The notes beneath the pieces were generated by a model. It saw only the letters and a program-made list of their open reading frames with translations. It was not told where the DNA came from and did no database searches. The position numbers were made by a program, and so were the translations under genes. A DNA stretch of 46,462 nt from a virus. Shown here piece after piece: positions 18,207 through 20,280 of the stretch. The stretch's first letter is position 1. Each line of letters starts with the position of its first letter. The stretch is from the IMG/VR virus record IMGVR_UViG_3300035698_001141, positions 1 to 46,462 of that record. One strand, given 5' to 3'.

Positions 18207-18716
18207 GTGGGTAACAAGACAAAACTGATCGCGCGGCTTGAAGCTAAGATTGACGATCTGCGTGTTAAAAACAAAATCCTTGAGTCGAATCGACCTCATT
18301 GGGCGCAGGGATATACGTCTGACGGCGTTGCGGCACAGTGTGCGACGACTGCACTTTCTGCGCTCTGGGAACTACTCGACGTCGAGTGCCAGACGCATGC
18401 GATGGATAAACTGCGGACGGTGGTGAGTGGGCGCGACGTCTCAAAACATGCCGTGGACAATGCGCTAGGTCTCGCTGCAAACGCCGTGAGTGGAACCGTC
18501 TGGGCACACACACATGACCACCGTGTCTGCTACGAGGTGATAGATGTGATCCTTAATATGCGGTCAGACTTTGCGTCAATCGAGGGCCAATCAGGGGCGG
18601 GGTCTGAGGTGGGGACCACTGAAACCCCTTATTCTTATGGTGCTGCTGGAGAGAATCGAACTCTCGACCTCTCCCTTACCAAGACAGTTCCAGCACCACC
18701 CATCCCTGATAAATAA
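18207..18716 (+). CDS. Hypothetical protein whose 3' end reads through attP
   Basis: The 169-residue protein starts with a coiled-coil helix (VGNKTKLIARLEAKIDDLRV) and continues with a helical region AAQCATTALSALWELLDVEC. The GTG at 18207 is chosen because the ribosome-binding leader GAAGGGAAGCGATAAG precedes it exactly as at 17707. An in-frame ATG at 18189 has no such site. The last 26 codons are read from the attP core (GAAGENRTLDLSLTKT is the antisense reading of a tRNA), so integration would replace or alter the C-terminus. No family recognised. Confidence 0.55.
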   Translation: MGNKTKLIARLEAKIDDLRVKNKILESNRPHWAQGYTSDGVAAQCATTALSALWELLDVECQTHAMDKLRTVVSGRDVSKHAVDNALGLAANAVSGTVWAHTHDHRVCYEVIDVILNMRSDFASIEGQSGAGSEVGTTETPYSYGAAGENRTLDLSLTKTVPAPPIPDK

Positions 18717-18792: not shown

Positions 18793-18972
18793 ATGAACGA
18801 TCATACCAACCGTCTACCGATGACGTCCGCTGGCGTAGCTACAATGAGTGACGAACAACTCATTCAGCAACATCGGAACCTGACGGACGATCTGCGCAAT
18901 CGTGGTATAACCGTCACCGCAAACAGACCAGATTGCAGTAATCGGTTAGCCTACACCAAGGTGTTCAAATGA
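18793..18972 (+). CDS. Small hypothetical protein after attP
   Basis: This is a 59-residue polar protein (MNDHTNRLPMTSAGVATMSD ...). A probable helix EQLIQQHRNLTDDLRNRGIT is near its centre. It ends in an ATGA overlap with the winged-helix gene. The frame is open further upstream across attP, but that part is antisense-tRNA sequence and not protein. No family recognised. Confidence 0.55.
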   Translation: MNDHTNRLPMTSAGVATMSDEQLIQQHRNLTDDLRNRGITVTANRPDCSNRLAYTKVFK

Positions 18973-19187
18973 AGCCGCGCGCATATCAGACACGTCGCGC
19001 CAAGGTCGGGATGTTCGTCAAGAACCTTGGCAATGTGACCACCGCGCAGATCATGACCGAGTTCGGGATCACATGCCCGATGGCGAACCGCGACGTCACG
19101 GCATTGATGGAAGTCGGCGTGCTGTCGCGCTTGCCCGGTGCGGTACGCGGCGGCGGTCTTCAATTCTCATACAAGGTAACGTCATGA
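18969..19187 (+). CDS. Winged-helix DNA-binding protein
   Basis: The 72-residue protein reads as a minimal winged helix: KVGMFVKNLGNVTTAQIMTE, then FGITCPMANRDVTALMEVGV (recognition helix region) and LSRLPGAVRGGGLQFSY (wing). It resembles the ArsR/DeoR-type HTH cores that phages use as small regulators. It overlaps both neighbours (ATGA), placing it in one operon with the Acb2/Tad1-like gene. Being beside attP, it is a candidate for lysogeny or accessory-gene control, which is inference only. Confidence 0.65.
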   Translation: MKPRAYQTRRAKVGMFVKNLGNVTTAQIMTEFGITCPMANRDVTALMEVGVLSRLPGAVRGGGLQFSYKVTS

Positions 19188-19393
19188 TGGACCAACCACC
19201 TAGAAAGGACCACTTTGATATGACTGAATTTACAGCAGCAGACGCCACCGCAGAGAGCATTGCCGACGCGATGGAAACGCTCGATCAGATGCCGAAAAGT
19301 CGCGAGGCCAGCATTGTGAAAACCAAGCTGCAAGAGGCTATGATGTGGCTGAACAGTGCCGCGCCAACCCGTAACGAAACTCCTACACCGTAA
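19184..19393 (+). CDS. Putative Acb2/Tad1-family cyclic-nucleotide sponge (anti-defence)
   Basis: The 69-residue protein ends in MPKSREASIVKTKLQEAMMW followed by LNSA. This closely follows the hallmark P.SREASLA.TKLEEA.MW.N.A hairpin of phage Acb2/Tad1-type proteins. An upstream helix (ADATAESIADAMETLDQ) fits the two-helix hairpin. Known Acb2 and Tad1 proteins bind cyclic oligonucleotides or gcADPR and block CBASS or Thoeris signalling. I infer a similar role here; which signal it binds cannot be read from sequence. Starts: ATG 19184 with AAGG at good spacing, or ATG 19220 at the conserved part. It is translationally coupled to the winged-helix gene. Confidence 0.65.
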   Translation: MMDQPPRKDHFDMTEFTAADATAESIADAMETLDQMPKSREASIVKTKLQEAMMWLNSAAPTRNETPTP

Positions 19394-19405
19394 AGGACCG
19401 CGCTA

Positions 19406-19822
19406 ATGTATGAACGATCATGGAAAGATGCCAAAATACCCGCTTGGGTTTCAGAAAGCATTGATCGTGACCTCATGGCATTCAAGATCACCGCTGCATT
19501 GTCTTGGCCAACAGAATCGCGACCTGAGCCAATACCGTTCTTTTGGGGCGAGTATGACAGACTTTTAGGTGAGCCGATGGAAGGCACGTTCTGGGTGATG
19601 GGTCGCTATGTTGAACCTGTGGAAATTCGTATTCAAGACGGGAGCGTCGGTCAAAAATGGAAGTCTTGGGTTTTTCGTTCTGGGGGTGGGCAATGGACAA
19701 CATCCGTTCCGCGAGGACGCCTTTTTTCGTGCGAACGTGACGCAAGATTAGAACTCTTGTGGCGTGAGTGCGAAAGTAGCGCCAAAACCCTAAATTCGAT
19801 ACGCGAGAAACTTTACTCATAA
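19406..19822 (+). CDS. Hypothetical protein between Acb2-like and Fic genes
   Basis: The 138-residue soluble protein is rich in Trp and aromatic residues (for example PFFWGEYDRLLGEPMEGTFW and WKSWVFRSGGGQW). The centre is predicted to be beta-rich and a C-terminal helix is present (DARLELLWRECESSAKTLNS). No signal peptide, membrane segment or catalytic motif is visible. It sits 14 bases before the Fic gene and could be its partner or substrate, but I recognise no family. Confidence 0.6.
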   Translation: MYERSWKDAKIPAWVSESIDRDLMAFKITAALSWPTESRPEPIPFFWGEYDRLLGEPMEGTFWVMGRYVEPVEIRIQDGSVGQKWKSWVFRSGGGQWTTSVPRGRLFSCERDARLELLWRECESSAKTLNSIREKLYS

Positions 19823-19836
19823 AGCGAGCATATGAC

Positions 19837-20280
19837 ATGAACTTGATAGACTTCATACAGGAATCTAATCGCATTGAAGGTACCCTGACGTACCCATCTG
19901 ACACTGAAATAGAGGCGTACGTCACGTTCCTGTCGCTGAAGGATGTGCCGACCATCCAAGACCTGAGACGCTTCGTAGAGGTCATCCAACCCGATGCACA
20001 GTTCCGCAACATGGTGTCCGTGCCGAACGTACGTGTCGGACGTCACATTGCACCTACTAGCGGACCTGACATAAGAAGCGCGCTATTCAAGATATTGTGT
20101 TATGCTTCAGGATACGGACCTTATCGCACACATTGTGAATATCTGACGTTACATCCGTTCACTGACGGCAACGGAAGATCGGCACGCGTGCTATGGTTGT
20201 GGATGATGGGTGGGGCACCTCGCGGTTTCCTGCACCAATTCTACTACCAATCACTTGACGCATCGGACGGACGTAAATGA
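19837..20280 (+). CDS. Fic-domain AMP-transferase with N-terminal self-inhibitory motif
   Basis: The 147-residue protein contains the complete Fic active site HPFTDGNGRSAR at 106-117 and the flap VRVGRHIAP (65-73). The N-terminus has SNRIEG at residues 10-15, which matches the inhibitory [S/T]xxxE[G/N] helix of class II Fic proteins, with E14 as the gatekeeping Glu. Such enzymes transfer AMP (or other NMPs) to target proteins, and inhibition is relieved in certain conditions. In a phage it may modify a host factor, act as an addiction module, or defend the prophage. It is short for a Fic protein but keeps the core. Its stop overlaps the PrimPol ATG (ATGA). Confidence 0.88.
   Translation: MNLIDFIQESNRIEGTLTYPSDTEIEAYVTFLSLKDVPTIQDLRRFVEVIQPDAQFRNMVSVPNVRVGRHIAPTSGPDIRSALFKILCYASGYGPYRTHCEYLTLHPFTDGNGRSARVLWLWMMGGAPRGFLHQFYYQSLDASDGRK

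Follow-up and report, generated by a model that had tools for sequence, protein, structure and literature searches.

A 57-residue member of the Acb2/Tad1 hairpin family encoded by a temperate phage

Known hairpin proteins and the protein of the window

Acb2—here Vs.4 of phage T4 (PF24729, phrog_717; structures 7uq2 and 8h2j)—and Tad1 (7uav, 8kbb) both bind trinucleotides at the ends of a trimer channel (reviewed in PMC12043709). In T4 Vs.4, cGAMP is contacted by Y8, H11, K23, R79 and F82, and changes at the hexamer interface, A77I among them, disrupt inhibition or abolish function (PMC10097602). In Tad1 the hairpin is C-terminal, and an N-terminal beta domain helps to form the gcADPR pocket. 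Short free-standing hairpins have also been described: CBASS antagonists were reported in cluster E mycobacteriophages, and the actinophage proteins named "cyclic nucleotide inhibitor" or CBASS antagonist belong to this type (phrog_1454; Xandras, BigBubba; PMC11953737), e.g. the 65-aa gp102 of Mycobacterium phage Balomoji, which is annotated "cyclic nucleotide inhibitor".

We analysed a stretch of viral DNA of 46,462 nucleotides, hereafter the window, in which one gene encodes a protein of 57 aa reduced to the hairpin core that Acb2 and Tad1 share. Its helix-2 core TKLxEAxMW aligns with T68–W76 of Vs.4, both proteins falling in the same Pfam family; T68, A73 and W76 are kept, whereas R79, F82 and A77 are replaced by S46, P49 and L44 respectively. 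Compared with Vs.4 the protein has a shorter first helix, no N-terminal KGY segment and no counterpart of the segment carrying Y8, H11 and K23, so that in the alignment none of the dinucleotide-pocket residues Y8, H11, K23, R79 and F82 is present. The match of Vs.4 to PF24729 starts at profile position 1, that of the window protein at position 17. The hairpin of Tad1, with its motif [SC]RExxxxxTKLQExxMWL, also resembles in sequence the window protein, which is hairpin only and lacks the beta domain, whereas the Tad1 relatives L009–L012 possess the N-terminal domain. As for the actinophage proteins, they retain an FxHHxP-like N-terminal segment and nearly the full PF24729 domain (positions 3–58 in Balomoji), unlike the window protein. 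The closest solved relative by sequence is "Acb2 homolog 43" (9ptq, 76 aa, six chains; E 4e-5, aligned segment METLDQMPKSREASIVKTKLQEAMMW), which differs by about 10 extra residues before the hairpin and by a longer C-terminus. Finally phrog_15810 (55 aa; E 3e-6), a PHROG without functional annotation, is of hairpin-only length, so that very short versions were on record before.

Short members of the family are thus already known, and the 57-aa protein is a new, reduced one. Because the cGAMP residues of T4 Acb2 and the N-terminal beta domain of Tad1 are both absent, neither the name "Acb2" nor the name "Tad1", with their respective specificities, can be assigned to it.

The gene, its start and its surroundings

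The features around the start of the gene are the following.

18969..19187, + strand: small winged-helix/HTH-like gene (72 aa), immediate upstream neighbour; weak HTH_DeoR match (E 0.006), below the cut-off
19184..19219, + strand: 12-codon upstream extension, which gives the 69-aa reading; absent as conserved sequence in the relatives L002, L003 and L005
19202..19209, + strand: Shine-Dalgarno sequence AGAAAGGA, 10 nt 5' of the ATG at 19220; present in L002 too
19220..19393, + strand: hairpin gene; PF24729 match, similarity to 9ptq, AlphaFold2 hairpin, and only synonymous differences from L002

A first-pass annotation had read the gene as 19184-19393, with 69 residues. The frame and the 3' end hold, but not the start: we rejected position 19184, as conservation in L002, L003 and L005 begins at 19220. 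Since the relatives share this boundary and both the upstream frame and the upstream gene are different in L002, we place the hairpin gene at 19220-19393, i.e. 57 aa (MTEFTAADATAESIADAMETLDQMPKSREASIVKTKLQEAMMWLNSAAPTRNETPTP) ended by a TAA stop. Among the IMG/VR relatives, L002 encodes an identical 57-aa protein starting at the ATG that corresponds to 19220, and the similarity with L003 and L005 has its left boundary at the same ATG. No in-frame ATG lies upstream of the start in L002, where the spacer between AGAAAGGA and the ATG is 2 nt shorter than in the window, so that the upstream frame differs. From these comparisons, the 12 additional codons are probably not translated within the hairpin protein.

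The motif PKSREASIVKTKLQEAMMWL, on which the first reading was based, is indeed present, in frame and on the + strand; across all six frames, a pattern built from it has a single match in the window and none in any of 200 base-shuffled versions. By simple counting, the substitutions between the window and L002 amount to 11 over 37 synonymous sites and 0 over 134 non-synonymous sites (dN 0, dS 0.38), and those between the window and L003 to 26 over 34 and 8 over 128 respectively. The hairpin gene is under strong purifying selection. The DNA match between the window and L002 extends from 19196 to 19399 only, at 93%; such a short match is the pattern expected for a small gene transferred between phages.

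The winged-helix gene had been proposed to be coupled to the hairpin gene. This association is not conserved: the winged-helix protein was found in 0 of six relatives' records—a weak result, as this search had no positive control—and the gene upstream of the hairpin in L002 is unrelated to it, which leaves a functional coupling unsupported. The ATGA overlap of the winged-helix gene with position 19184 is, from the same comparisons, most likely coincidental.

On the other side of the winged-helix gene lie two features of interest for the phage itself.

16638..17705, + strand: tyrosine integrase (phrog_1 integrase, E 1e-34)
18639..18683, - strand: 3' end of a tRNA-Thr (anticodon GGT), 45 bp, read from the sequence; candidate attP core, also in L040

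Judging from its integrase the phage of the window is temperate. The tRNA-Thr fragment and the integrase gene are some 0.9 kb apart, and the 45 bp of the fragment recur in the virus record L040, where they also form a partial tRNA. Positions 18639-18683 are therefore a plausible attachment site; the previous description of the hairpin gene as lying beside attP is acceptable to that extent, the site being a candidate. The terminase is nearest to those of Roseobacter phages (48%), which makes marine Rhodobacterales the likely host. The hairpin gene stands among small genes, a short distance upstream of a primase gene; in L002 it stands a short distance upstream of a DNA polymerase-like gene.

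Two other small genes follow it in the window. The nearer (19406-19822) encodes a 138-aa protein matching nothing in Pfam, PHROGs, PADLOC and NCBIfam, and is a candidate for a further accessory gene. The next (19837-20280) encodes a 147-aa Fic protein, above the cut-off of PF02661 and with the motif HPFTDGNGR; its N-terminal ESNRIEG resembles the Fic inhibitory motif, and it weakly matches the PDC-S04/SoFic models of PADLOC.

Family membership, relatives and predicted structure

The hairpin protein reaches 39.4 bits (E 7e-10) against PF24729, the Acb2/Tad1 hairpin family, whose curated Pfam gathering cut-off is 27 bits; the 69-aa reading reaches 38.8 bits. It is the sole match to this family in the whole 46-kb window, and the same search gave 0 matches in 14 control genomes. 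The match covers positions 17-55 of the 58 of the profile, hence not the whole domain, while coverage starts at position 1 in Vs.4, in Jess A and in Gordonia phage Remus. Profile-profile comparisons between separately built alignments relate the close group of the hairpin protein to the actinophage Acb2-like proteins (97.6%, E 4e-12), to the Tad1 relatives (95.7%, E 8e-9) and to canonical Acb2 (87.5%, E 4e-6). The profile search of the PDB with alignment A2 is partly circular for Tad1, as A2 includes Tad1-type rows. Searches of PADLOC and NCBIfam with the hairpin protein gave no useful match.

Helix 2 carries the signature SRExSxxxTKLQEAMMW, of which RE...TKL.EAMMW is nearly invariant in the alignment; the invariant residues are R28, E29, T35, K36, L37, E39 and M42. 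In Acb2 an arginine at the SRE position takes part in trinucleotide binding, a point to which we give no weight as evidence.

AlphaFold2 (11 rows) predicts for the monomer an antiparallel hairpin, with helices at 6-23 and 28-47 and a pLDDT of about 92 in the helices. In Foldseek the top nine matches are all Tad1 chains, with weak E values (0.6-2), and the structure-match Z of 5-6 for Tad1 equals that of unrelated helical hairpins. Chains of Acb2 and of 9ptq were not among the structure matches listed, which is no evidence against the family. We discarded the structure search as a proof of family, since a helical hairpin of 57 residues scores a Z of 5-6 with many unrelated proteins; with a helical protein of this size, more weight goes to the evidence from sequence. 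Taken with the predicted hairpin, the curated HMM and the profile-profile matches indicate that the protein is a member of the Acb2/Tad1 hairpin family. The first-pass annotation, which had advanced this kinship and suggested a profile search as a check, is borne out as to the family.

The hairpin also exists as part of larger proteins. In L017 and L018 (2695-3177) a 160-aa protein combines an N-terminal phrog_11049 domain with a C-terminal hairpin like that of the window; and in JessAGP_016 of Caulobacter phage Jess A (L039) the phrog_11049 domain is fused to a canonical Acb2 hairpin. The occurrence of either hairpin after one and the same domain is the strongest indirect argument that both hairpins do similar work. 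The fusion itself might possibly be a Tad1-like sponge with two domains.

Two further situations were encountered among the relatives. In L007 (2857-3068; the same sequence opens L003) the frame is open 5' of the hairpin and includes a Cys-rich segment, CPDC...CWCEDGGC; here the hairpin may be fused to a zinc-ribbon-like domain. In L004, L005 and L006, three contigs identical over 6,189 bases, a TAG occupies the codon of Trp43 (TGG in the window), which leaves 42 residues, and the frame stays open beyond. This TAG could be a loss akin to that of Acb2 known to occur naturally in T4-like phages resisting Panoptes (PMC12657230), or the short form may be functional.

A single-sequence scan of genome contigs returned no relative and an alignment-based scan one Verrucomicrobiales MAG, in whose phylum 2 of 289 genomes exceed the PF24729 cut-off; a plasmid search gave one weak match, from Paenibacillus.

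A putative nucleotide sponge and its alternatives

We consider it fairly probable, by analogy with Acb2 and Tad1, that this minimal free-standing hairpin works as an oligomeric anti-defence sponge with a cyclic trinucleotide as its likeliest ligand. The 57-aa hairpins would probably assemble through their two helices into a trimer or a hexamer and act early in infection. The oligomer would capture and hold the nucleotide signal of a host defence, either CBASS or a comparable system that signals by cyclic oligonucleotides; with the signal sequestered, the defence effector would stay off. Since the protein retains the common hairpin, which forms the trimer axis in both families, but has neither the dinucleotide pocket of Acb2 nor the beta domain of Tad1, the ligand would most likely be a cyclic trinucleotide held at this axis. 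A stricter form of the proposal, which we advance more tentatively, is that, with its dinucleotide and gcADPR pockets gone, the sponge acts only through the common site of the trimer axis, being specific for cyclic trinucleotides. Certainly several points speak against a sponge: the contacts for cGAMP are absent, A77 is replaced by L44, the PF24729 match is partial, a TAG interrupts the gene in L004-L006, and the fold match to Tad1 is not distinctive.

One may ask whether dinucleotides or gcADPR could still be bound, in a rearranged pocket whose residues differ from the ones identified in Acb2 and Tad1. The range of ligands does vary among homologues of the family (PMC12043709), and the nearest Foldseek matches are the gcADPR-binding Tad1; on the other hand the protein has no N-terminal segment with the Y, H and K residues, no equivalents of R79 and F82, and no beta domain, and we regard this possibility as rather unlikely. 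Less likely still, the hairpin would be a mere oligomerisation module which partners another protein of the phage or of the host and binds no nucleotide. Its fusion elsewhere, to phrog_11049 in L017 and probably to the Cys-rich segment in L007/L003, is consistent with such a role, as is the loss of the known dinucleotide-pocket residues. However, among the invariant residues R28, E29, T35, K36, L37, E39 and M42 are polar and charged side chains where helix 2 begins, seemingly more than helix packing alone would call for; besides, the hairpin is free-standing in the window and in L002, and a canonical Acb2 hairpin also occurs behind the phrog_11049 domain.

The lack of profile positions 1-16 and the in-frame TAG of a related virus (L004-L006) might also suggest a decaying, non-functional remnant of a longer Acb2/Tad1 sponge gene. 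This idea is largely refuted by the substitutions, with 0 non-synonymous against 11 synonymous changes in L002 and strongly skewed counts in L003; moreover the Shine-Dalgarno sequence is intact, and the unit recurs in unrelated contexts with an identical left boundary. We hold a remnant to be very improbable.

Returning to the sponge, its binding of a signal would make the 57-aa protein the smallest working Acb2/Tad1 unit, and would permit a direct test of whether the site common to both is the trinucleotide site. Should it bind no signal, the hairpin would rather be a building block, and a match to PF24729 alone would be insufficient for an anti-CBASS annotation. Were the sponge of 57 residues to take trinucleotides only, it would be the superfamily's smallest functional core and reveal which part is the basic unit. 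A sponge here would also extend this anti-defence family to a phage with a terminase closest to those of Roseobacter phages.
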